IMG/VR virus record: IMGVR_UViG_3300032562_000113
Coordinates: 1-32,338 of that record
Source of the DNA: a virus
Direction: 5' to 3' (one strand)
DNA: 32,338 nucleotides
Shown here: positions 4,045 to 28,276 of the stretch, piece by piece
Layout: each line of letters begins with the position of its first letter
How positions within the stretch are numbered: position 1 is the first letter of the stretch
Program-made: the position numbers and the translations under genes
Notes under the pieces: model-generated
Told to the model about the DNA's origin: nothing
Databases searched by the model: none
Seen by the model: only the letters and a program-made list of their open reading frames with translations

Positions 4045-6228
4045 TTACTTCCGCTTTGGAGGCGTCAGACCGTAAGCCTTAACCTTATCCAAACGGGCTT
4101 CTCCGCCGCCCGAACCTGTCTCGATCGGATAGCCAGTGCGGCCACCTGCCTTGCGAGCAGGCTTGAGGCCGTAGGCGTCTTTCTTTTCAAGACGAGCTTC
4201 GCCACCGCCCGCACCCGAATCAATCGGGTATCCCGTGCGACCGCCATGCTTACGAGGCATTGGCATGCCGCCCTGCGGAGGCATTGGAGGCATACCCTGT
4301 GGAGGCATACCGCCCTGTGGCATTGGTGGCTGTTGCTGCGGGATGCGAGGCGACACAGGAGCGTTTGGCATTGGCTGACCACCCATCATGCCTTGCGGCT
4401 GACCACCTTTGCCCGTGGCAATGATGATGTTGACGTTGGTTTTGCCTTTAGCTCGTCCACCTGATTTGCGTGGCAACGCATCTTCCTGCTCAGGTGTTAA
4501 CCCATAGGATTGCTCACTTGTATCCATAGGGCGTTGTCCGGGACGTGGCGTTAAGTCAGAATTAATTCCCGCATCCATGCTGTCCCGCAAGCGTTGATTT
4601 TGTCTTTGAACAAAATCGCGTTCACGAGCTGCATAGCTTGACGGATCATTTTCCATACCGCTTGGATTTCCAAAAACAATAGCAGGTTCACCTGCTCCGC
4701 CTTGGCGAATACCGGGCATATAAGTGTTTTGCGGCCGTGGTGGTGGGGCCTGCCAAGTTGGGGATTGCGTAGGATCGTAACGACCTGCCCCTTGGTTAGC
4801 CTGTGCACGTTGCTGCGGGTCCATCATGGAAAGATCAGAAGCACCCGCGGCCATCGGCGAAGGTTTAGGAGCAGAACGACGTGAACCTGCACCATAGCCT
4901 GCGCCCGGCATACCGCCCATACGAGTAGGGGCATTACCTTGAGCTTCCATAGCGCGCGCACGATCTGCAGAATTCATTGCAGCGATTTGATCAGGCGTTG
5001 CCTTATCAAGGTTTTGCCAGCCGCTGAACAAATCATAATGCGCGCCCGACCAATAGTTAGGGTCGTCGTACATGCTGCTGCTTTCGCCGCCGCCCTTCTT
5101 AGCCTGACGTCCGCCTACATCGCCGGGGATTTTTGTCTTGCTGTCGCCCGAGAAGATGCCGCCGCCGCTATACTTGCCAGTACGGCCGCCCCAGCACATT
5201 TTGCAGGTGCAGTCGTCGTGATGCATAGCCTTGCCACCCTTGGCTTTGAAAGCCGTTGGCTTGATCATTGACTTGATCAACTGACGATCGGCCTTCTCAT
5301 CGGGGTGGCTAATCTTGCCGCCCTTTTTAAGGCCGGGGCCGGGGTTTGTTTTTGGCTTTGGGCCAGTATAAACCTCTGGCTTATCCGCAGGCCGTGCCGT
5401 TGGGCGAGGAACCTTGGCATAGCTTGTGCCCATCGGTTCAACGGATGACATGTTATTAACCATCTGGCTTAGTTCATCAGCACCATAGTTGCGATCAGCA
5501 TAATCAGCTTCAGCGCCACCGCGGGCTTTTTTATGGACCTTGCCACCCTTCTTCATCATGCCGGAAGCCTTACCCATCATTTGGTTTTGTTGGGAAACTG
5601 GGTTGTTACCCATCATCCCGCCGCCAAACTTGTGTGCGCGGCCGCCTTTTTTCATGCCAGCTTGTGACTTAGCTGTATCTGCATCACGAGAGGCCATGTA
5701 TGCTTTTGCAGCATCCATAGAAAGGTCCATATTAGACTTATTTCCAATGCCCGATGGACTAAAATCTGCCCATTTACCAGCGGTGTCCCACGCATTGTCA
5801 TACGCTTTATTAGATCGGGATTGTGCTGCACCGACCCGTTGAGCTTCAGTTTGGCCGCCATCTGCACGGTGTTTGGCCTTGCCGCCCTTCTTGAACCCAC
5901 CGACGTGCTTTTCGCCTTCACGGGCTTCGTTAGCCGTGCGGACGTCGCGGTTGATCAGGCTATCAGGCGTTAGCTTATTGGTACGGCCGCCCGTCTTGCG
6001 AGGCATACGGCCGCCGTGCTTGTGGCTGTCTTTGCCTTCATGCTTGCCAACAACCTTGCCGCCCTTTTTATAAAGGCGTTTTACAAGGGGGCGAGCGCCC
6101 GTCTTGACGTCGGCTTCAAGTGCTTCAGGTGGCGTCCAAGTTGAGCTATCAACTTTGGTGTGTGGGTCGGCTTCTGTAAGGCGCTTGGCCTTTGACCGCC
6201 CACGGTCGTCTTTCTTGTATTCTTCCAT
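4045..6228 (-). CDS. Long low-complexity protein with repeated KGGK/KGGR motifs
   Basis: 727 residues, rich in Gly, Lys, Met, Pro and Arg. Short motifs of the form KKGGK, KHGGR, RKTGGR and RKAGGR recur at least ten times along the chain. The last 65 residues contain two copies of a roughly 31-residue unit, each reading GGRTGYPI, then a GGGEARL core, then AYGL. A Cys/His patch HHDDCTCKMCWGG sits near residue 340. A Pro/Met/Gln-rich stretch lies near 620-660. No membrane segment or enzyme motif is visible. Ribosome site GGAGTACGTACT precedes the ATG. It sits among virion genes, and the same motif appears in the next two genes upstream. Function is unknown; a nucleic-acid-binding internal virion protein is one possibility. 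Confidence 0.75.
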   Translation of the reverse strand: MEEYKKDDRGRSKAKRLTEADPHTKVDSSTWTPPEALEADVKTGARPLVKRLYKKGGKVVGKHEGKDSHKHGGRMPRKTGGRTNKLTPDSLINRDVRTANEAREGEKHVGGFKKGGKAKHRADGGQTEAQRVGAAQSRSNKAYDNAWDTAGKWADFSPSGIGNKSNMDLSMDAAKAYMASRDADTAKSQAGMKKGGRAHKFGGGMMGNNPVSQQNQMMGKASGMMKKGGKVHKKARGGAEADYADRNYGADELSQMVNNMSSVEPMGTSYAKVPRPTARPADKPEVYTGPKPKTNPGPGLKKGGKISHPDEKADRQLIKSMIKPTAFKAKGGKAMHHDDCTCKMCWGGRTGKYSGGGIFSGDSKTKIPGDVGGRQAKKGGGESSSMYDDPNYWSGAHYDLFSGWQNLDKATPDQIAAMNSADRARAMEAQGNAPTRMGGMPGAGYGAGSRRSAPKPSPMAAGASDLSMMDPQQRAQANQGAGRYDPTQSPTWQAPPPRPQNTYMPGIRQGGAGEPAIVFGNPSGMENDPSSYAARERDFVQRQNQRLRDSMDAGINSDLTPRPGQRPMDTSEQSYGLTPEQEDALPRKSGGRAKGKTNVNIIIATGKGGQPQGMMGGQPMPNAPVSPRIPQQQPPMPQGGMPPQGMPPMPPQGGMPMPRKHGGRTGYPIDSGAGGGEARLEKKDAYGLKPARKAGGRTGYPIETGSGGGEARLDKVKAYGLTPPKRK

Positions 6229-6244
6229 AGTACGTACTCCAGAG

Positions 6245-7831
6245 TTACGAGCGGCGTCCCGCTATTGCTGCCAGAAGGTGGGGATCCAACGCGGGCAGCG
6301 GCGCGCTAATCTTGTCAAGCACATGCTCAACAATAGGAGAATGGGGCATTTGTTTATAATCTACCTTCTCTCTATCTATGGTCCCACCTTTTGCTTTTGT
6401 AATTTCTGGATCGTAACCCCATTCATTTAATGAATCTCCATTAGTAAAAACATCTTTTGCTTTTACCATTTTACTCAAAATTTTATATTTTCCACGAAGA
6501 ACACCGTCTCCATGTAATTTTGCATATGCTCTAGAGGGCGTAACCCAATCTCCGGGATTAATAGCTGCGATTGAAGGCGCAGACTCATTTGGTTGCGTTC
6601 TTAATTTTTCACGCAAATCGTAAGCGTTATTATACCACTGACTACCATTAGTTGTTCCCGCATCATTAGGAAGCTTCTTTCTTCTTTGGTAAGCAGCCAT
6701 ATCAGATTCAAGTTTAGCAAGCTTTTCTTGAGATGATGGCTCATGTGGAACAGCACGGTAAACCCGAACAGGAGCTTCTGGTTTTCCTTTTAAACGCACT
6801 GTATGGCGATACGATTCTTGATCAATCGGATCAGTCGCGTCACCATAATAATGCAACCCTTTGGGGCTATATAAATCAGCAGGGTACACGCCCGTCGTAT
6901 CATGCAATGGAGCGCCAACATCATCATTGCGACGAGGAGCTTGATGACCGCCACGATAATCTTCGGTTTCTCCACCACGGCCGTATCCTTCAACCTCGCC
7001 GCCCTGCTCGTATTTCCGTTTAATGCTGACCCTGTTGCGGTCAAAGATGACGTAGTTGTGGGTTAATTTAGGAGGTTCAATAGAATATTCTGGGTTTCTT
7101 GCATGAAATTCCTTTGCAGATTTTTCATTTGGAAACTCATTAACGCCACCTTGTGGATGCTTTAAAACCCATGGTTTATCGCCTCTAGATCTCTCATCAA
7201 GATAACGAATGCCGTGAATGCCATGTTGATGGAGAACTTTGGATGTTTCTTCATTGGGAGAATCTTTGCCAATAAACCCCATAATTCGTTCTAAATCTTG
7301 ATATGCTTTTCCTCCGCTAAAAGGAGAAACCTTTCCATATGTGTTTATAACGTTGTTAAATGCACCTTTTACATGCTCACTCTGCTCACTCAACGGCTTA
7401 TCCCAATCCAACATGTGATCAGGATGCGCGTCGATGGCGACCTCGTACATGTGGCCGGGTTGTTTAATGCGACCTTCTTTGACCAATTTGTCGTAATGGT
7501 TAAGAAGTTGCGGGTGTCGGGCCTCCATCACAGATCGCGCCGTGTCACCATAACTTGACACAATGTCTGCAATGTCATGTTCAATAGTTGGGTCGGTGCC
7601 ATACGGAAGTTTGTATTTTTCCGAAGCCACTTCGCTCATTGGTCTTTTGTCAAGTGTCGATTGGCCCATCGCCAATTTGTCCCGATAACCTTCCGCCACT
7701 GGCTCATGCTCGGCAAAATATAGCCCATGCCCATACGCCTGTGCGCCTTCGCCCGTGCCGATCTTGGACGTGTCAAACTGTTCAAAGTCGTGTGGTGAGC
7801 CGTGGTATGCGGTGATGCCATCATCAACCAT
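6245..7831 (-). CDS. Protein with two ADP-ribosyltransferase-like domains
   Basis: 528 residues. Domain 1 (about 5-270) starts ITAYHGSPHDFEQFD, has GEGAQAYGHGLYFAE at 27-41, MYEVAIDAHPDHMLDWD at 128-144, HGIRYLDERSRG at 206-217 and closes NYVIFDRNRVSI. This is the pattern of ADP-ribosyltransferases found in phage polyvalent proteins. Domain 2 (about 305-475) has VRVYRAVP at 355-362, NPGDWVTPSRAYAKLHG at 425-441 and NGDSLNEWGYDP at 464-475, an R / S-T / E order like the R-S-E class. A linker near 274-295 carries YEQGGEVEGYGRGG, matching the motif of the downstream gene. Such enzymes transfer ADP-ribose from NAD to host proteins. The ATG overlaps the upstream stop. The second domain is noticeably AT-rich. 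Confidence 0.72.
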   Translation of the reverse strand: MVDDGITAYHGSPHDFEQFDTSKIGTGEGAQAYGHGLYFAEHEPVAEGYRDKLAMGQSTLDKRPMSEVASEKYKLPYGTDPTIEHDIADIVSSYGDTARSVMEARHPQLLNHYDKLVKEGRIKQPGHMYEVAIDAHPDHMLDWDKPLSEQSEHVKGAFNNVINTYGKVSPFSGGKAYQDLERIMGFIGKDSPNEETSKVLHQHGIHGIRYLDERSRGDKPWVLKHPQGGVNEFPNEKSAKEFHARNPEYSIEPPKLTHNYVIFDRNRVSIKRKYEQGGEVEGYGRGGETEDYRGGHQAPRRNDDVGAPLHDTTGVYPADLYSPKGLHYYGDATDPIDQESYRHTVRLKGKPEAPVRVYRAVPHEPSSQEKLAKLESDMAAYQRRKKLPNDAGTTNGSQWYNNAYDLREKLRTQPNESAPSIAAINPGDWVTPSRAYAKLHGDGVLRGKYKILSKMVKAKDVFTNGDSLNEWGYDPEITKAKGGTIDREKVDYKQMPHSPIVEHVLDKISAPLPALDPHLLAAIAGRRS

Positions 7832-15179: not shown

Positions 15180-15273
15180 CTACGCAGACCAGAACCAATC
15201 CTTGTAGCGCCTTGCACGCTTGCCCGTTGCTGTAACGGCCGCAGGTGACTTCCCCCGCGTAGGGTGTTCTTTA
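15180..15273 (-). other. Open extension after the alpha-CTD-like gene, possible +1 frameshift product
   Basis: Directly after the stop of the 15271-15795 gene the +1 frame is open for 31 codons and reads [14 protein letters not shown], then TGKRARRYKDWFWSA, then TAG. The composition is protein-like (basic, aromatic end). That frame has no ATG, GTG or TTG after its preceding stop, so it cannot start by itself. The junction is CTT TAA A preceded by GGAAGAAG, the same kind of arrangement as the CTT TGA C site of release factor 2. Alternatives are a base-calling error, a degenerate gene, or chance. Confidence 0.3.
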
Positions 15274-15795
15274 AAGCATCTTCTTCCGCTGCACCTTTCT
15301 CGAGTACATCATGGCATAGCCATAGCGATAGGCGATGGCAGCATGAGCCTCGGCGTCTCCCTGATAGTGCAGGATCACGCTTGGCAAGGCAGCAGCCGCA
15401 AACCGATCGATGAGGGATTCCTGATCATAGGCGGACAGGCGGTTGACCTCCTCCTTCCATGCGTCATTGGAATGCTTGGCAAGGTCGATGACGTGCTCGA
15501 GTTCCTTGATCTGCTGTTTTAACTTGCTGTTCTCCTCAGCCTCTTTGGTAGCGTATCCTGCCCTTGCATCCCAATCGATGCCAATATCGTCTTTTAAAGC
15601 CACTTTAAGCTCATTTAAGCTTAATTTGCCAAAATTGGGCATTCGCAACAGTTCCGCGTCCGTTTTTTGAACCAGATCCCCAATCGTCTTAATATTATCA
15701 TTTTTAAGGCAATTACTGGTTCTAACGCCTACAGCTAGATAATCTACGGTCGCTTCCAATACGTTTTTGTAGTCTTTTTGCCATGAGTATTTCAT
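15271..15795 (-). CDS. Phage protein with an RNA polymerase alpha C-terminal-like domain
   Basis: 174 residues. Residues about 18-68 match the RpoA alpha-CTD helix-hairpin-helix: [17 protein letters not shown], then [20 protein letters not shown], then [10 protein letters not shown]. Equivalents of E. coli DNA contacts R265, N268, C269, G296 and S299 are present (R25, N28, C29, G56, S59), while K298 is Leu58. There is no alpha N-terminal domain, so it cannot dimerise into polymerase in the normal way. Residues about 90-118 form a coiled coil ([19 protein letters not shown]), and the C-terminal part reads [16 protein letters not shown] then [14 protein letters not shown]. It could bind UP elements or host activators and redirect transcription (inference). 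It is the last gene before the terminator. Confidence 0.75.
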
Positions 15796-18183: not shown

Positions 18184-18381
18184 TTATTTCCTAACCTGCA
18201 TCATCGAGACATTCTCCTGCAACTTGACCTGCGGGTTCGGCCACGTCCAGCACTCGCCCGTGTCGTCTTGGAAGCATACGAATAGCAAATGGTGCTCTTG
18301 TCCATAGTCGATCAGAAAGTGCGCTTTGGCACGTCCCTTAGGCGTCTCTAGCGGAATGGTAGGGTTGAGTTGGATGATCAT
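18184..18381 (-). CDS. Conserved-type small phage protein
   Basis: 65 residues beginning MIIQLNPTIPLETPKGRAKA, then HFLIDYGQEHHLLFVCF and GECWTWPNPQV. This wording recurs in small proteins of many phages; the role is unknown. The ribosome site AAGGAGGGCGACC sits inside the end of the upstream gene (its codons for KEGDQ), a variant of the array junction. Confidence 0.7.
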   Translation of the reverse strand: MIIQLNPTIPLETPKGRAKAHFLIDYGQEHHLLFVCFQDDTGECWTWPNPQVKLQENVSMMQVRK

Positions 18382-18560
18382 TGGTCGCCCTCCTTCATCC
18401 CTAATCCCGCAATCAACTGGCGAACTTTATCCTTAAACAACTTGTTTTCTTGTTGTGCTTCGTATAGCCATCTGGCTTGCATGACGTTGGTTTCCCGCAA
18501 AAGCGCACAGGCATGATAGTCAATGAAATCCAATATTCGCATCCATACGTCATGATCCAT
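18378..18560 (-). CDS. Array gene MDHDVW-type, long form
   Basis: 60 residues. The N-terminal half MDHDVWMRILDFIDYHACAL is nearly identical at DNA level to the gene at 19742-19864 (18500-18560 versus 19804-19864, 3 differences in 61). The C-terminal half is different: a soluble helical tail MQARWLYEAQQENKLFKDKV. It ends with KEGDQ, forming the ribosome site of the next gene. Unknown function; last member of the array. Confidence 0.65.
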   Translation of the reverse strand: MDHDVWMRILDFIDYHACALLRETNVMQARWLYEAQQENKLFKDKVRQLIAGLGMKEGDQ

Positions 18561-18808
18561 TACTCACCCTCCCCAATCACCCCAATAATATCTTTTGCCA
18601 TATCCAACCGCCCAGCCTGTCTCCCAACAAAATACGCTTCATTAATCGCTTCTGCTGTGATTCCGTGTTGGTTTATGAAATACTGTGGCACGTTACCATC
18701 CGCAGCTTTTAACCGTTCGCTTGTCCAGTGAGCAGAACTGCAAATTTTGCGAATGTCGTCTTTTATAAACTTAATCCGCATTTGTAATTTTTCATAATCA
18801 GTTTTCAT
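18560..18808 (-). CDS. Array gene MKTD-type, copy 1
   Basis: 82 residues from ATG at 18808 (the preceding in-frame GTG is part of the junction). Helical, with KFIKDDIRKICSSAHWTSERL and GITAEAINEAYFVGRQAGRL, ending IGEGE. About nine residues in ten are shared with the protein at 19494-19742, including a long stretch of identical DNA over residues about 38-65. Coupled to the next gene by TAATG. Unknown function. Confidence 0.7.
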   Translation of the reverse strand: MKTDYEKLQMRIKFIKDDIRKICSSAHWTSERLKAADGNVPQYFINQHGITAEAINEAYFVGRQAGRLDMAKDIIGVIGEGE

Positions 18809-19044
18809 CACTCACCCTCCTTCAGTGCATCCCAAGGATTAAAATCATCGCCGGTAAGAAATTTTGACCAATATTTATCAGCAACCTTTTTTGCGATTAA
18901 CTTGCTAATAACTGCCTGATATTTTTCCTCATCTCTCCGCAATTGTTCAATCGTATTGGCGGCTTCATCAAAGATGTCATTGTTGCCCCAACCAACAGAT
19001 AACCAAGTGGCGGCGCGTTTCCGTAGCCGTTCAACAATATCCAT
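18808..19044 (-). CDS. Array gene MDIVERLR-type
   Basis: 78 residues. The N-terminus MDIVERLRKRAATWLSVGWG and NNDIFDEAANTIEQLR is shared with the 20579-20863 protein; the remainder (VISKLIAKKVADKYWSKFL) is unique. Ends with ALKEGE whose codons are the ribosome site of the next gene. Phage proteins with 'MDIVERLR...AA.EIERLR' are common and of unknown function; here it is a predicted coiled-coil protein. Confidence 0.68.
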   Translation of the reverse strand: MDIVERLRKRAATWLSVGWGNNDIFDEAANTIEQLRRDEEKYQAVISKLIAKKVADKYWSKFLTGDDFNPWDALKEGE

Positions 19045-19244
19045 CACTCACCCTCCTTCAATGCGGCGCGAACAATAGCCTTAACTCTTTCATCGTTTTT
19101 TACATAAGGCAAAGCCCATCGCAAAGCATCCCGCAATTGTTCAATCTCATTGGCGGCATCGTTCTGCAATCCAAGGCGAAACGTATAGCCATCTTGTGAG
19201 TAAACAGTATTTGCGCTTTTGCGTAATTGTTCAACAATATCCAT
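19044..19244 (-). CDS. Array gene MDIVEQLR-type
   Basis: 66 residues: MDIVEQLRKSANTVYSQDGY, then NDAANEIEQLRDALRWALPYV, ending ARAALKEGE followed by the shared stop/start. One coiled-coil phrase. A 13-base gap separates its start from the preceding gene, but the ribosome site AAAGGAGGGTGAGTG is the standard junction. Confidence 0.66.
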   Translation of the reverse strand: MDIVEQLRKSANTVYSQDGYTFRLGLQNDAANEIEQLRDALRWALPYVKNDERVKAIVRAALKEGE

Positions 19245-19257
19245 CACTCACCCTCCT

Positions 19258-19494
19258 TTAATTTGCCAACACATCAACGGATGTGATTTCAAATCCATCA
19301 ATATTTACGCATGTTGTAGAAGTATTGTTTCTCATGTTCTCCGCTACATTATATAATGTAACAGCGACCAAAGATCGCAATTCCGCAGCACCTTGTGTAT
19401 TTTGAGACAGCCCATCATTTGTTTCAACCCTAAACAATTCTTGCACGGGGTCAAAGTAAAGTGAGACCAATCTAATATCTTCCAACTTATCCAT
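19258..19494 (-). CDS. Array gene with unique beta-rich protein
   Basis: 78 residues from ATG at 19494. MDKLEDIRLVSLYFDPVQEL, then ELRSLVAVTLYNVAENM, then INGF-like ending DGFEITSVDVLAN. Unlike its neighbours it has no coiled-coil phrase and does not end in KEGE; the standard junction lies just after its stop instead. Unknown function. Confidence 0.62.
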   Translation of the reverse strand: MDKLEDIRLVSLYFDPVQELFRVETNDGLSQNTQGAAELRSLVAVTLYNVAENMRNNTSTTCVNIDGFEITSVDVLAN

Positions 19495-19742
19495 CACTTA
19501 CCCTCCCCGATCACGCCCATAATATCTTTTGCCATATCCAACCGCCCAGCTTGCCGCCCAACAAAATACGCTTCATTAATCGCTTCTGCTGTGATTCCGT
19601 GTTGGTTTATGAAATACTGTGGCACGTTACCATCCGCAGCTTTCAAGCGTTCGCTTGTCCAGTGGGCAGAACTGCAAATCTTGCGGATGTCGTCTTTAAT
19701 GAACTTAATCCGCATTTGTGCTTTTTCTAAATCGGTTTTCAT
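19494..19742 (-). CDS. Array gene MKTD-type, copy 2
   Basis: 82 residues. Paralogue of 18560-18808, with KFIKDDIRKICSSAHWTSERL and GITAEAINEAYFVGRQAGRL both conserved; it ends IGEGK. It follows the MDHDVW-type gene at 19742-19864, the reverse of the order at the other copy. Unknown function. Confidence 0.7.
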   Translation of the reverse strand: MKTDLEKAQMRIKFIKDDIRKICSSAHWTSERLKAADGNVPQYFINQHGITAEAINEAYFVGRQAGRLDMAKDIMGVIGEGK

Positions 19743-19864
19743 TACTCACCCCTGTTAATTGTTACGCGACCAATGCCGCCAATTGACAGCACAACCATCC
19801 ACCAAAGCGCACAGGCATGATAGTCAATAAAATCCAATATTCGCATCCATACATCGTGATCCAT
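19742..19864 (-). CDS. Array gene MDHDVW-type, short membrane form
   Basis: 40 residues. The first 19 residues (MDHDVWMRILDFIDYHACA) match the 18378-18560 gene, but the tail is LWWMVVLSIGGIGRVTINRGE, making one likely transmembrane segment. It starts on the A of the previous TGA and ends on TAATG. The switch of tail within an otherwise near-identical gene looks like a recombination chimera. Confidence 0.6.
   Translation of the reverse strand: MDHDVWMRILDFIDYHACALWWMVVLSIGGIGRVTINRGE
19804..19864. repeat. Direct repeat of 18500-18560
   Basis: 61 bases matching 18500-18560 with three substitutions by eye. It covers the 5' half of the two MDHDVW-type genes and stops where their coding tails diverge. 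Confidence 0.75.
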
Positions 19865-19979
19865 CACTCCCCCTTTAACACAACACAAGCGACACCAATG
19901 GCACCGATTATTGCAAATAAAAATTGTAGCGTCTGCGCTAAATTAGTTCCTATCTCCATCACTCACCCTCCTTCAGTGC
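19859..19979. repeat. Direct repeat, copy 1 (partner at 21106-21226)
   Basis: 121 bases matching 21106-21226 with two substitutions by eye, one inside the microprotein gene and one in the junction beyond it. It contains a whole 31-residue gene plus both flanking junctions. Confidence 0.85.
19864..19959 (-). CDS. 31-residue membrane microprotein, copy A
   Basis: Reads MEIGTNLAQTLQFLF, then AIIGAIGVACVVLKGE. One strongly hydrophobic segment (about residues 10-27) ends in a Lys, consistent with a single-pass membrane peptide. Start and stop use the standard TGATG overlaps. An almost identical gene lies at 21111-21206. Preservation of start, stop and frame in both copies argues that it is translated. 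Function unknown; a membrane-active phage peptide is possible. Confidence 0.6.
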   Translation of the reverse strand: MEIGTNLAQTLQFLFAIIGAIGVACVVLKGE

Positions 19980-20144
19980 GGCTTGCTGATGAAAAGACAA
20001 ATCTTTTCCTTGTAAAAGCCTTCTTATGGCCGCGCATTTAACACAGCGCACAATCCACCCCCATTTTTTTCTTTGAAAATATCCTTTTCCAACACCAACA
20101 TTGCAGCGGCAGTCAATGCAATCACCAGCGTATTTATTTCGCAT
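19959..20144 (-). CDS. Array gene, small zinc-finger-like protein
   Basis: 61 residues from ATG at 20144. Cysteines in CIDCRC near residue 10 and CVKC near residue 34 suggest a four-cysteine zinc site, with YAGDC, GKGYFQRKKWGWIVRC between them. It ends QAALKEGE at a standard junction. Resembles small zinc-binding phage proteins with 'YAG.C..C...V..G.G' wording; function unknown. Confidence 0.66.
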   Translation of the reverse strand: MRNKYAGDCIDCRCNVGVGKGYFQRKKWGWIVRCVKCAAIRRLLQGKDLSFHQQAALKEGE

Positions 20145-20461
20145 CACTCACCCTCCTTCAGTGCGGCACGGGCAATTTCGTGCATCTCATCACATTTCAT
20201 GGACGCGCCTTCTGGCCCGTAGTATTTTACAGCGTCAATTTTCCGCAACGCTTCCCGCAACCGTTCTGGCGTGTCGCACAAAATCGTCCACATTTTAAAA
20301 TTATCTTCCCGCAGCTTTTCAATTTCATTGGCAGCTTTTTGAAATGCATCCCAATAAAGGCGGGATTCTTTCCGCAACCGCTCAATCTCATTTTTGGCAT
20401 CGGCTGCTAATTGTGCATATTCAGGGATCATCGGCCCCTTTAACCGTTCTACAATATCCAT
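20144..20461 (-). CDS. Array gene MDIVERLK-type coiled-coil protein
   Basis: 105 residues from ATG at 20461. Begins MDIVERLKGPMIPEYAQLAA, then three coiled-coil phrases (AKNEIERLRKESR, AANEIEKLREDNF, PERLREALRKIDAV) and ends ARAALKEGE. Longest member of the array. Function unknown. Confidence 0.68.
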   Translation of the reverse strand: MDIVERLKGPMIPEYAQLAADAKNEIERLRKESRLYWDAFQKAANEIEKLREDNFKMWTILCDTPERLREALRKIDAVKYYGPEGASMKCDEMHEIARAALKEGE

Positions 20462-20471
20462 CACTCACCCC

Positions 20472-20579
20472 TCAAAACCCGAACACAATTTTGGCTATTG
20501 CAATTACGCATATAAACCCCAATCCCATACCCAGAACCACAGCAAACGTAGCTTTAAACAGACCTATAAAGTCATCCAT
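20472..20579 (-). CDS. 35-residue membrane microprotein
   Basis: MDDFIGLFKATFAVVLGMGL, then GFICVIAIAKIVFGF. Nearly the whole length is hydrophobic after the first 10 residues; one membrane helix, Gly-rich. The start uses the TGATG overlap with the 20579-20863 gene and GGAGGGGGAGTG as ribosome site. Unknown function. Confidence 0.55.
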   Translation of the reverse strand: MDDFIGLFKATFAVVLGMGLGFICVIAIAKIVFGF

Positions 20580-20863
20580 CACTCCCCCTCCTTCAGTGCG
20601 GCGGAACTTATTTTTAACAAAGCCCGTTTGATGTAAGAACCATCATGCAACCATTGATTGATGCCCTTATCAATCTCACGCAAAGCCTCCCGCAACCGCT
20701 CAATCTCGTCGGCGGCTTCATTTGGCCGATCTTTTGGCCGATCTTTTGCAGCCTCCCGTAGTCGTTCAATCTCGTCGGCGGCTTCGTCAAAAATGTCATT
20801 GTTGCCCCAACCAACAGATAACCAAGCGGCGGCGCGTTTCCGCAACCGGTCAACAATATCCAT
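20579..20863 (-). CDS. Array gene MDIVDRLR-type with duplicated coil phrase
   Basis: 94 residues. MDIVDRLRKRAAAWLSVGWG and NNDIFDEAADEIERLREA repeat the start of the 18808-19044 protein. A second EAADEIERLREA follows after a DRPKDRPN linker, a tandem duplication within the gene. It ends SSAALKEGE at the standard junction. Function unknown. Confidence 0.68.
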   Translation of the reverse strand: MDIVDRLRKRAAAWLSVGWGNNDIFDEAADEIERLREAAKDRPKDRPNEAADEIERLREALREIDKGINQWLHDGSYIKRALLKISSAALKEGE

Positions 20864-21111
20864 CACTCACCCTCCTTCAGTGCGTTGTTGACAAAAAGTA
20901 TAAGTGCTTTGGCATTCGGTGGGCTATCAGATTCGCAGTGCGTTAAAATATAACGTAACGCTTTCCGCAACCGTTCAATCTCATTGGCATATGGCTTGAC
21001 AGCCTTGATCCACGCATCGCGGTGGAATTTGCTATACCATTTTCCATCTTTCCATTCTCCGCCATCCATAGCCAATGCAATATCAGCAGCCATCTTTTCA
21101 GCAATATCCAT
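20863..21111 (-). CDS. Array gene MDIAEKM-type
   Basis: 82 residues from ATG at 21111, which overlaps the microprotein stop (TGATG); an in-frame upstream start lies inside that gene and is rejected. MDIAEKMAADIALAMDGGEW, then ANEIERLRKALRYILTHCES, ending NNALKEGE. Unknown function. Confidence 0.66.
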   Translation of the reverse strand: MDIAEKMAADIALAMDGGEWKDGKWYSKFHRDAWIKAVKPYANEIERLRKALRYILTHCESDSPPNAKALILFVNNALKEGE

Positions 21112-21226
21112 CACTCCCCCTTTAACACAACACAAGCGACACCAATGGCACCGATTATTGCAAATAAAAATTGTAGTGTCTGCGCTAAATTAGTTCCTAT
21201 CTCCATCACTCACCCTCCTTCAATGC
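21106..21226. repeat. Direct repeat, copy 2 (partner at 19859-19979)
   Basis: See copy 1. The copies lie 1247 bases apart in the same orientation, with unrelated array genes between them. Confidence 0.85.
21111..21206 (-). CDS. 31-residue membrane microprotein, copy B
   Basis: Same reading as copy A at 19864-19959 apart from one base, which changes a codon in the TLQFL region (ACG to ACA, both Thr). A synonymous difference is a small hint of protein-level constraint. It starts and stops on standard TGATG overlaps. Confidence 0.6.
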   Translation of the reverse strand: MEIGTNLAQTLQFLFAIIGAIGVACVVLKGE

Positions 21227-21499
21227 CTTTTTAGCAAGACCAACCGCCATTGCCAAAACGGTCCATGTTACGCCTTCGTTAGAAGTTTGAGGGACTGGGA
21301 TGTCTTCATGTTCAATATCTGCGATCTGCTGCAATACGCCGCGTAACCGTTCAATTTCATTAGCGGCATCAGTGATTGTTTTTGGCATGAGCCGTAACGC
21401 TTCCCGCAGCCGTTCAATCTCATTGGCGGCTTCATTCGTAAGCGCATTAACATCCTCGCTCGTATGTATCCGCCACCGCAACCGTTCTACAATATCCAT
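21206..21499 (-). CDS. Array gene MDIVERLR-type with two coil phrases
   Basis: 97 residues from ATG at 21499. MDIVERLRWRIHTSEDVNAL, then NEAANEIERLREALRL and DAANEIERLRGVLQQI, then a different C-terminal domain (GVTWTVLAMAVGLAKKALKEGE). Same junctions at both ends. Function unknown. Confidence 0.68.
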   Translation of the reverse strand: MDIVERLRWRIHTSEDVNALTNEAANEIERLREALRLMPKTITDAANEIERLRGVLQQIADIEHEDIPVPQTSNEGVTWTVLAMAVGLAKKALKEGE

Positions 21500-21690
21500 C
21501 ACTCACCTTCCTTCAATTTTGGCCTGTAACCTTCATAGCCTTTATTTTTGCAATAATTGTGAGATACGACAATGCTTTGATTTGCAGCACCAATATAACA
21601 GCAATGGTCGTGTCTTTTCTTTTTTCCTTGATGCTCACTAATATTAGAGGCCAGTGCCAAACAACCTTTGCACTTTGTGGGTGTTTTCAC
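21499..21690 (-). CDS. Small Cys/His protein, first array member
   Basis: 63 residues from a GTG start at 21690, chosen because GTGA overlaps the upstream stop and GGAGGTGCA is well spaced. KTPTKCKGCLALASNI, KKRHDHCCYIG and SHNYCKNKGYEG give several Cys/His, probably a zinc site. It ends KLKEGE at a junction written AAGGAAGGTGAGTGATG, one base off the usual form. It is the transcriptionally first gene of the KEGE array. Confidence 0.62.
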   Translation of the reverse strand: MKTPTKCKGCLALASNISEHQGKKKRHDHCCYIGAANQSIVVSHNYCKNKGYEGYRPKLKEGE

Positions 21691-21806
21691 CACTGCACCT
21701 CCCCGTTAATTACAACCTGCACATACCACCTGTCGCCGCTGTCGTTCTCCCACAGCGCACATATGTTGTCGCCGTCCCGCTCATGGCGGACTATCCATTT
21801 CCTCAT
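21687..21806 (-). CDS. 39-residue protein, unknown
   Basis: MRKWIVRHERDGDNICALWE, then NDSGDRWYVQVVINGEVQW. Trp and charged residues, probably a small beta structure. ATG overlaps the upstream stop (ATGA), and its stop overlaps the GTG of the next gene. GAGGAAGTT provides the ribosome site. Confidence 0.6.
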   Translation of the reverse strand: MRKWIVRHERDGDNICALWENDSGDRWYVQVVINGEVQW

Positions 21807-26185: not shown

Positions 26186-26273
26186 TTTGTTGGCCCCTAA
26201 TTCACATTACACTGTTGACAATCACACAATCACCCCTGTAGTGTCAACCCTGTTGAAGAAGAGGAGTGTGCCA
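26186..26273. promoter_or_regulatory. Divergent early control region
   Basis: Transcription diverges here. GTTGACA (26214-26220) and TGTCAAC (26242-26248) form a 7-bp inverted repeat that places a perfect TTGACA box on each strand. Rightward: TTGACA at 26215-26220, 18-base spacer, TAGTGT (weak -10). Leftward: TTGACA at 26247-26242 with a poor -10. The repeat is a natural operator candidate for the adjacent HTH protein. ATG at 26274 is preceded by GAGGAG. Confidence 0.55.
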
Positions 26274-27062
26274 ATGGGCATTTTAGATAGCGTATCAAAA
26301 CCGTCCGATCGTCCGGTACTTATAACGATCTGTGGTGACAGCGGCATGGGTAAGACCACACTGGCTGTCACGTTTCCAAAGCCCATCGTGATTCGTGCGG
26401 AGGATGGCCTTCAGGCTATTCCGGCCGACATGCGCCCCGATGCGTTTCCTACCTTGACTGGGCCAGAGGATCTCTGGGAGCAGCTCAAAGGTCTTATTAA
26501 TGAGCAGCACGACTATCAGACTGTGATCATTGATTCGGTGACTGCGCTTGAGCGTATGTTTACGCAATGGGTGGTTGATACTGACCCTAAGAAGCCAAGG
26601 GGCATCCAGCAGGCTCTAGGCGGCTACGGCGCAGGCCGTGACGCAGTGTCTGGCATGCACCAGCGGCTGCGTAAGGCGGCGGGTATTCTGGCCGATAAGC
26701 GCGGCATGAACACGGTGTTCATTGCCCACGCGGACACGGCTAGGATCGAGCCACCGGATGATGATGCCTATATGCGTTATACGCTGCGGCTTCATGAGAA
26801 GAGCATGCCTGCCTATGTCGACGACGTCGACGTGGTTGGGTTCCTAAAGCTTGAAACCTTTACAACGGGTGACGGTGAGAAGAAGAAGGCCATCAGCGAT
26901 GGCACTCGTATTCTGATCACCTATGCCACGGCGGCGAACGTCAGTAAGAACCGTTACGGCATTCAAGAGCCCATCACGGTTAAGATTGGCGAAAACCCAC
27001 TGGCAGAATTTATTCCGGCATTACGTCCCGTTGTAGCAAAGAAGGATAAGGCAAATGGCTGA
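26274..27062 (+). CDS. Sak4-like RecA-fold ATPase (AAA_24)
   Basis: 262 residues from MGILDSVSKPSDRP; an earlier in-frame ATG at 26187 lies across the control region and lacks a ribosome site. Walker A GDSGMGKT at 21-28, Walker B TVIIDSVT at 83-90, then IAHADTARIEPPDDDAYMRY near 168, as in phage Sak4 / AAA_24 proteins that load or assist recombinases on single-stranded DNA. The next genes encode an ssDNA-binding protein and a YqaJ exonuclease, the usual partners. It overlaps the next gene by 8 bases. Confidence 0.8.
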   Translation: MGILDSVSKPSDRPVLITICGDSGMGKTTLAVTFPKPIVIRAEDGLQAIPADMRPDAFPTLTGPEDLWEQLKGLINEQHDYQTVIIDSVTALERMFTQWVVDTDPKKPRGIQQALGGYGAGRDAVSGMHQRLRKAAGILADKRGMNTVFIAHADTARIEPPDDDAYMRYTLRLHEKSMPAYVDDVDVVGFLKLETFTTGDGEKKKAISDGTRILITYATAANVSKNRYGIQEPITVKIGENPLAEFIPALRPVVAKKDKANG

Positions 27063-27600
27063 TTTTTGGGAACTCTCAGATGGCGATGATATCGTCAAAA
27101 CAGGTGGCAAGTTTGAAACTGGCGGCGGTAACATCGAGCCAATTCCAGATAAAACAGATGTTGTGGCCGTCATTGACGAGGCGCGCATCGAGCGGAATCA
27201 GCAGGGTCTGCAATACATCTCGTTGAGGTGGTCGATTGTCGCTCCTGCAGATTACAAGAACCGTAAAGTGTTTCAGAAGTTGTGGGTATTTGATGACGAC
27301 CCGCAGGCGAAGAACCCTGTACAAAAGCGTGATAAGGCGAAGAAGATGTTGTTCGCCGTCGATACTAATGCTGGTGGCAAGTTGAAAGCATCAGGCAAGG
27401 CTCCAAGCGATGATCTGTTACAGGCCACGCTGACGAACAAGCCGATGCAGATCAAAGTCATGCTTATGAAGCGTGACGATGGCACTGGCATGAACTGGAT
27501 CTCATCTGTCGCACCTCGTAGTGGTGGGGCTGCCACGTTAACTGCAGCGGCTGCTCCCAAGGCTGCTGCGGTCGAGATCGACGATTCAATTCCGTTTTGA
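27055..27600 (+). CDS. DUF669-like single-stranded DNA-binding protein
   Basis: 181 residues. Beta-rich core with ISLRWSIVAPADYKNRKVFQKLWV (about 56-79), a region RDKAKKMLFAVDTNAGGKL, and a C-terminal Ala-rich linker ending EIDDSIPF. An acidic tail finishing in D-x-IPF copies the tip of bacterial SSB, which recruits partner enzymes. DUF669 proteins are phage ssDNA-binding proteins beside Sak4/recombinase genes. Start follows AAGGATAAGGCAA within the preceding gene. Confidence 0.78.
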   Translation: MADFWELSDGDDIVKTGGKFETGGGNIEPIPDKTDVVAVIDEARIERNQQGLQYISLRWSIVAPADYKNRKVFQKLWVFDDDPQAKNPVQKRDKAKKMLFAVDTNAGGKLKASGKAPSDDLLQATLTNKPMQIKVMLMKRDDGTGMNWISSVAPRSGGAATLTAAAAPKAAAVEIDDSIPF

Positions 27601-27658: not shown

Positions 27659-28276
27659 ATGGAACAACGCACTGAAGAATGGTTCAAAGCCCGCCAAGGG
27701 CGTGTGACGGGATCGGCCGTAGGAGCCATTCTCGGTGTGTCTCCATTTACCAAACGAACTGACGTTATGCGCCGCATGGTACGCGACTGGCACGGAGCGC
27801 CAAGCGAGTTCACGGGTAATATCGCAACCGACTGGGGCACGATGAACGAGGATGGCGCTATTTCGCAATATGAAATGAAGACGGGTAATAAGGTTGAGAA
27901 GTGCGGATTTTATACGAGAGAGGATTGGTTAGGAGCTAGTCCAGACGGTCTGATCGGCATCACTGGTTTGATTGAAGTGAAGTGTCCGTTTGGCCTACGT
28001 AGCAAAGATCCGCCTGTTTTTAAGACAGCTAAGATGCAAGTTCATTATTATAGTCAGATGCAGATACAGATGTATGTAACAGGCCGCGAGTGGTGCCACT
28101 TTTATCAATGGGCTCCGAAGGGAGACGAGCTGGAAACGGTGCATTTTGATAAGCCATATACCGACACGGCGCTTATGGCATTGAAACGGTTCTACGATGA
28201 ATATTTAATAGAGCGCGAAAAACCAGAGAAGTATTTAGATGGGGAAGAGATCAGCATTCAAACGCCACAAGCTTGA
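27659..28276 (+). CDS. YqaJ-family viral recombinase exonuclease
   Basis: 205 residues. N-terminal EQRTEEWFKARQGRVTGSA (about 2-20) and ILGVSPF, then the catalytic PD-(D/E)xK core GASPDG (D96) and LIEVKCP (E106, K108), and HYYSQMQIQMYVTG near 120-135. This is the lambda-exonuclease/YqaJ type that resects double-stranded ends for annealing. Full length. AGGGTGGTATA precedes the ATG, and the 3' end overlaps the methyltransferase-like gene by 38 bases in another frame. Confidence 0.88.
   Translation: MEQRTEEWFKARQGRVTGSAVGAILGVSPFTKRTDVMRRMVRDWHGAPSEFTGNIATDWGTMNEDGAISQYEMKTGNKVEKCGFYTREDWLGASPDGLIGITGLIEVKCPFGLRSKDPPVFKTAKMQVHYYSQMQIQMYVTGREWCHFYQWAPKGDELETVHFDKPYTDTALMALKRFYDEYLIEREKPEKYLDGEEISIQTPQA

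Follow-up and report, generated by a model that had tools for sequence, protein, structure and literature searches.

Integrons carry single-gene cassettes in tandem that are bounded by a common site, attC, and have a tyrosine recombinase of the IntI type. Among phages, short conserved boundary sequences (linkers) have been proposed for the mosaicism of the lambdoid phages (PMC3029335, PMC2327257), the promoter early stem-loop (PeSL) cassettes of T4-type phages have a promoter and terminator stem-loops between genes (Arbiol 2010 and Comeau 2014, as cited in PMC4503421), and the start-associated sequences (SAS) of cluster K mycobacteriophages, GGGATAGGAGCCC, lie mostly at gaps of more than 50 base pairs (PMC3203893). 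Here we describe an array of tiny genes in a freshwater phage, an IMG/VR record of 32,338 bases (the whole of which is called the window), in which the genes are joined by one repeated sequence, the junction. The modules of this array are single genes bounded by the junction, and they are exchanged with crossovers inside it. Judged by sequence comparison, it is quite probable that this is an integrase-free cassette array in which the translational junction doubles as a recombination linker, and it would then be a variant of boundary-sequence phage mosaicism.

The window encodes terminase, portal, capsid, primase and recombination genes. A preliminary description of this DNA reported some sixteen consecutive tiny genes of 31-105 codons, and there are indeed 16 of them, running from 21690 to 18378 on the minus strand. 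The array and its neighbors, with lengths in amino acids (aa), are as follows.

21687..21806, minus strand: upstream anchor gene MRKW..NGEVQW (39 aa), ending in a second junction type, GGGGAGGTGCAGTGGTG
18378..21690, minus strand: array of 16 small genes of 31-105 codons in a single direction
21499..21690, minus strand: VKTP, array gene, 63 aa
21206..21499, minus strand: MDIV_a, array gene, 97 aa, with EIERL repeats
21111..21206, minus strand: MEIG_a, array gene, 31 aa, hydrophobic
20863..21111, minus strand: MDIA, array gene, 82 aa
20579..20863, minus strand: MDIV_b, array gene, 94 aa
20472..20579, minus strand: MDDF, array gene, 35 aa, hydrophobic; its stop precedes the junction
20144..20461, minus strand: MDIV_c, array gene, 105 aa
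19959..20144, minus strand: MRNK, array gene, 61 aa, with two CxxC pairs
19864..19959, minus strand: MEIG_b, array gene, 31 aa, protein the same as MEIG_a
19742..19864, minus strand: MDHD_a, array gene, 40 aa
19494..19742, minus strand: MKTD_a, array gene, 82 aa
19258..19494, minus strand: MDKL, array gene, 78 aa; its stop precedes the junction
19045..19058, minus strand: exact junction copy, AAGGAGGGTGAGTG, ahead of the ATG at 19044
19044..19244, minus strand: MDIV_d, array gene, 66 aa
18808..19044, minus strand: MDIV_e, array gene, 78 aa; an extra cassette compared with the related locus L082
18560..18808, minus strand: MKTD_b, array gene, 82 aa
18378..18560, minus strand: MDHD_b, array gene, 60 aa, the final array member
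18184..18381, minus strand: MIIQ, downstream neighbor with a decayed junction (4 mismatches) before its start; in relatives at 83-90%

Duplications within the array hint at modules. MKTD is duplicated as a 263-nucleotide (nt) repeat (92%) comprising the gene and parts of its junctions, and MEIG occurs twice with identical proteins. MDHD_a and MDHD_b are alike over the first ~20 codons only, and among the MDIV copies the likeness is confined to the first part; the repeat of MDIV_b and MDIV_e stops at an EIERL motif. Ten array proteins compared with PHROGs and Pfam gave no significant family, and MDIV_b had no relative among INPHARED phages. The ratio of nonsynonymous to synonymous substitution rates (dN/dS) of MKTD is 0.05, that is, its product is under purifying selection; its AlphaFold model was too poor for a fold search (predicted local distance difference test, pLDDT, 55.5).

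The 15 internal junctions are variants of AAGGAGGGTGAGTG followed by an ATG start. Seven match it exactly, two have one mismatch, and two each have three, four and five, so that 9/15 lie within one mismatch, 11/15 within three and all 15 within five. Besides the exact copy listed above, others precede the starts at 21206, 20863, 20144, 19959, 19244 and 18808. The stop/start overlap that had been reported is present as TGATG or TAATG at 13/15 junctions, and at the remaining 2/15 the upstream gene stops 10-13 nt ahead of the next start. Outside the array, 29 of the window's 30 other genes have 6-11 mismatches to AAGGAGGGTGAGTG and the remaining one, MIIQ, which adjoins the array, has 4. With up to 3 mismatches allowed, a 22-base junction pattern found 8 sites in the window, all inside the array, and its reversed control found 0; the GTDB genome collection contains no exact copy of the same 22 bases followed by ATGGAYAT. 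The statement that most of the proteins end in ALKEGE was too strong because 7/16 do so and 8/16 end in LKEGE. As for the many said to begin with MDIVERLR, an MDIV start is found in five, only two of which continue to MDIVERLR, and one more begins with MDIA. Similarly, the claim that the junction is better kept than the gene interiors holds across unrelated genes, but several interiors are repeated too (MKTD, MEIG and MDHD twice each, and EIERL).

How does the junction compare with the described systems? It would share with the lambdoid linkers homologous recombination at short conserved sequences flanking exchangeable modules; unlike them, it is repeated at nearly every array gene, lies within the stop/start overlap and contains the ribosome site, and the modules are single genes of 31-105 codons. 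In PeSL cassettes, a repeated regulatory element between small genes likewise mediates shuffling, but PeSL acts in transcription and lies between genes, whereas the junction is a signal for translation and lies where two genes overlap. No promoter and terminator of the PeSL type lies between the array genes, which overlap by one base at 13/15 junctions, and promoter-like sites are not in excess in the array region (7 versus 10.8 in shuffles). The likeness to SAS is that both are repeated and asymmetric, have a Shine-Dalgarno core just before the starts of unrelated non-structural genes and are conserved beyond the 16S pairing. However, in different phages SAS go with the same gene families, and the sections of the SAS account consulted mention no shuffling role; moreover, the junction consensus is AAGGAGGGTGAGTG and not GGGATAGGAGCCC, with gaps of -1 nt in 13/15 cases and of 10 and 13 nt in two. 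Like the integron, the array has single-gene cassettes in tandem with a common site, but here this site is a short ribosome site inside gene overlaps. No integrase or attC-like site turned up among the proteins scanned, although no search aimed at them was made. We found no description of such an array in the open papers, some of which were covered by title and abstract opening, and, as far as the accounts were read, the boundary-sequence, PeSL and SAS descriptions contain no short overlap that unites stop, ribosome site, start and recombination site and recurs along a gene array.

Relatives were collected from IMG/VR by a pattern scan and a terminase search, plus an MKTD search, giving 146 loci (designated L) once contained sequences were removed. 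In a frequent layout among them, a variable array comes after an anchor gene that ends in GEVQW. Array genes recur in other orders and with other neighbors, and near-identical genes (96-100%) are found beside different neighbors in other phages; the fixed gene order that would have spoken against shuffling was not seen. L082 and L092 carry genes almost identical to those of the window although their terminase is only 38% identical, and the array is common to phages with terminases 38-100% identical. The replication genes that adjoin the arrays also vary, namely, a DnaB-like helicase (L086), O-like initiators (L062, L182) and DNA polymerase (L072, L009). Single events can be read directly. L082 joins MDIV_d to MKTD, and the window is longer by 236 nt, which is MDIV_e plus one junction, with 23 nt shared. 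MRNK, 100% identical over 214 nt in L092, is missing in L013 between the same neighbors (a difference of 185 nt from the window). In the comparison of L184 with L050, CGTGCCGCACTG-AAGGAGGGTGAGTGATG-AAAACTG combines the left flank of one junction with the right flank of a different one. Hybrid junctions are also found: MKTD bodies carry the anchor-gene tail GGTGCAGTGGTG, and in L037 a gene ending in EPPK is fused to the junction and now ends in EPPKGG at the second TGA. Upstream of the gene MAIIK there is a gene with the KEGE ending in one of L138 and L122, and in the other a gene whose stop is at -16; thus a single exchange altered the reading frame through the junction.

It could be argued that these joins were made by the assembler, since the junction is a repeat of 17-36 nt and L093 stops inside the 263-nt repeat. 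However, the same gene orders recur in contigs of separate data sets (L137/L148/L102; L129/L029; L042/L045/L053), and L093, which is 99.98% identical to the window and ends at 19515, agrees with it until there. The junction repeats are also shorter than the usual assembly word lengths. Assembly artefact is therefore a very improbable explanation.

To locate the crossovers, 205 junction sites from IMG/VR contigs were aligned on the start codon. Because positions -14 to -1 had served to choose the sites, selection bias is absent only from the raised columns beyond this range (0.72 at -16, for example). Where the genes on either side are unrelated, the likeness between sites is limited to about -24 to +8, against a background of 0.26. 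When the downstream gene alone is homologous identity is lost upstream of -16, and when the upstream gene alone is homologous it is lost after +2. Both neighbors were homologous in 8 site pairs and one side only in 69 and 92, with the large MDIV family counted as one. In divergent phages, most whole-gene blocks 96-100% identical to the window span from about -3 to -24 of one start to +2 to +17 of the next. Of the clean gains and losses in the range of 60-1,500 nt, those at junctions (n = 17; the listed events are not all independent) share 5-36 nt at the break with a median of 21, whereas 23 of the 40 clean indels elsewhere share none, and a few of the 40 are, by sequence, EIERL-type repeats. 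The mean break fraction per homologous pair is 0.76 at junctions versus 0.32 at other boundaries when MDIV-type genes are excluded; a cruder estimate for non-MDIV genes gave 0.75-0.88 versus 0.44. Breakpoints thus fall in the junction, as judged by homology ends, identical blocks and clean indels, and they are not randomly distributed. Two marks of linker mosaicism are found here, a conserved sequence bordering unrelated modules in the island from -24 to +8 and crossovers in that sequence in the 17 junction indels. A third would be the dependence of the exchange on homologous recombination enzymes, and candidates for these (Sak4-like, SSB and RecE-like) are encoded by the phage. The plug-in array of the preliminary description, in which genes are gained, lost or reordered at the repeated junction, is supported by these breakpoints and by the gene orders of the relatives, whereas the role in host takeover suggested there finds no support.

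The junction is conserved as nucleic acid and not as the peptide KEGE. The upstream gene ends at -2 at 180/205 sites, clearly elsewhere at 19 (-16 at 10 sites, -19, -6 and -22 at two each, and -26, -5 and +1 at one each) and ambiguously at 6. TGAAGGAGGGTGAGTGATG contains TGA in all three frames, and stops in three frames lie between -18 and +2 at 145/205 sites.

Several points weigh against reading the junction as a translational element that doubles as a recombination linker. All of the relatives are metagenome contigs. The contig comparisons are not independent, which makes p-values no more than indicative. Paired within contig pairs, the break fraction is 0.83 at junctions versus 0.70 at other boundaries, which is a moderate contrast. 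One of the three stops is missing at 60/205 sites. As a repeat the junction has nothing special about it, since recombination also occurs at the EIERL repeats within genes. Lastly, of the local-alignment ends in the arrays, 54% coincide with starts (null 21%) and a further 21% with EIERL repeats (null 8%), but flanking small genes that lack the junction show 52% and 56% of breaks at starts (null ~20%). The location of breaks at boundaries, taken by itself, is thus ordinary phage mosaicism and proves little, and alignment-end location on its own was dropped as a proof. This control favors a process in which illegitimate exchange is random, crossovers at boundaries survive by selection, and the junction is a good ribosome site spread by duplication and descent; so does the remark that most mosaic joints have no boundary sequence (PMC3029335). 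Three signals are, however, specific to the junction: the break fraction, the shared nucleotides at clean indels and the identical blocks from start to start. Selection alone does not account for the 5-36 nt shared by junction indels, when most others share little, or for the higher break fraction, and it does not predict crossovers inside genes at EIERL repeats; hybrid junctions also exist. We therefore regard selection alone as unlikely, though it is the least improbable of the rival explanations.

A different question is why the junction wording is so uniform. A strong Shine-Dalgarno sequence, the stop/start overlap and codon bias could have produced it independently in many genes. Consistent with this, a junction pattern scan found the wording with GGT in 84 contigs and with the other three glycine codons together in 47, mostly as single hits in unrelated phages, and pairing of GGT with the 16S tail is 1.6 kcal/mol better than that of GGC. 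By itself, the need for a ribosome site does yield the junction wording elsewhere among phages, but less often. On the other hand, 29 of the window's 30 other genes lack this wording, and its conservation reaches to -16 to -24 and beyond the start codon, outside the ribosome site. The glycine codon at KEGE junctions is GGT in 103/114 cases, GGA in 1/114 and GGC in 0/114, while GGC is the top glycine codon in the window's large genes (55%). The avoidance of GGC can be explained by extended 16S pairing but that of GGA cannot, because GGA pairs as well as GGT. Codon bias and ribosome-site need as the sole source of the wording, which the preliminary description had named as a possible refutation, thus fail, and such convergence has scarcely any likelihood. 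The simplest explanation of the uniform wording is the descent of one junction along with its cassettes.

The mechanism that we propose for a junction acting as a recombination linker gives the same bases two roles. In the RNA, it would close one frame and open the next by way of the Shine-Dalgarno sequence, TGATG and, usually, a stop in every frame, with putative termination-reinitiation (coupled translation) at each junction. In the DNA, the same 17-25 bases would serve as a direct repeat for deleting, inserting or swapping whole genes between co-infecting phages, probably by the annealing of short repeats. As the junction terminates every frame that enters it and carries the ribosome site that is needed, a newly acquired gene should be translated next to any neighbor, and such swapping may benefit the phage. 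The exchange would probably be carried out by the phage's own annealing set, which is encoded in the window.

26187..27062, plus strand: Sak4-like single-strand annealing ATPase (phrog_124, PF13479)
27055..27600, plus strand: phage SSB (phrog_9002) with C-terminal DDSIPF
27659..28276, plus strand: YqaJ/RecE-like recombination exonuclease (PF09588, phrog_434)

In HK620, the annealing of single strands by Sak4 is stimulated by the cognate SSB, whose six C-terminal residues mediate the effect (PMC5928155), and divergent substrates are tolerated by Rad52-like phage recombinases and lambda Red (PMC3945230, PMC2327257).

Some further observations were made on these phages. Clean gains and losses also take place inside MDIV-type genes, at the EIERL repeat (20144-21499 and 18808-19244 in the window; L011, L031, L129, L138, L184 and L050), which makes the MDIV-type proteins modular at a second level. 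EBPR podovirus 2 (L192) was rejected as a relative of the array because a 61-base query gave E 0.4 over 28 nt and it has a single weak site (4 mismatches) and no array; it does have a series of short overlapping genes without assigned function. The best genome match of the terminase, 96% identical over 271 residues, is L237, a 3.2-kb contig in a Rhizobiales bin (Umea2_bin-2380), and there are weaker matches in Rhizobium genomes, in which the stretches examined have at most one junction-like site. L237 may be a hint to the host or a mis-binned phage. Elsewhere in the window, a 174 aa protein (15271-15795, minus strand) has a bacterial RNA polymerase alpha C-terminal domain (PF03118, 4.7e-19) and may affect host transcription. 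A 528-aa protein (6245-7831, minus strand) starts with YHGSPHDFEQFD...GHGLYFAE, a motif that by eye resembles an ADP-ribosyltransferase-type domain, and a 727-aa protein of the structural region (4045-6228, minus strand) is rich in Lys/Gly/His repeats (KKGGK, HGGR).

It has long been asked how phages exchange small genes while keeping their operons intact, since border sequences are seldom seen at mosaic joints (PMC3029335). In this array the border can be seen, recurs and has a known function, and recombination at a translational junction can therefore be measured directly. The chances seem to us about even that the junction is, more broadly, a frame-independent translation adapter (three-frame stops, ribosome site and start) and the common currency of several phage lineages with different replication modules; it would then give lake phages a shared, integrase-free pool of small genes and be the translation-level counterpart of the integron. 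The junction also offers a route to finding small phage genes, namely, whatever sits between two junctions, and it is a natural design for a plug-in operon.

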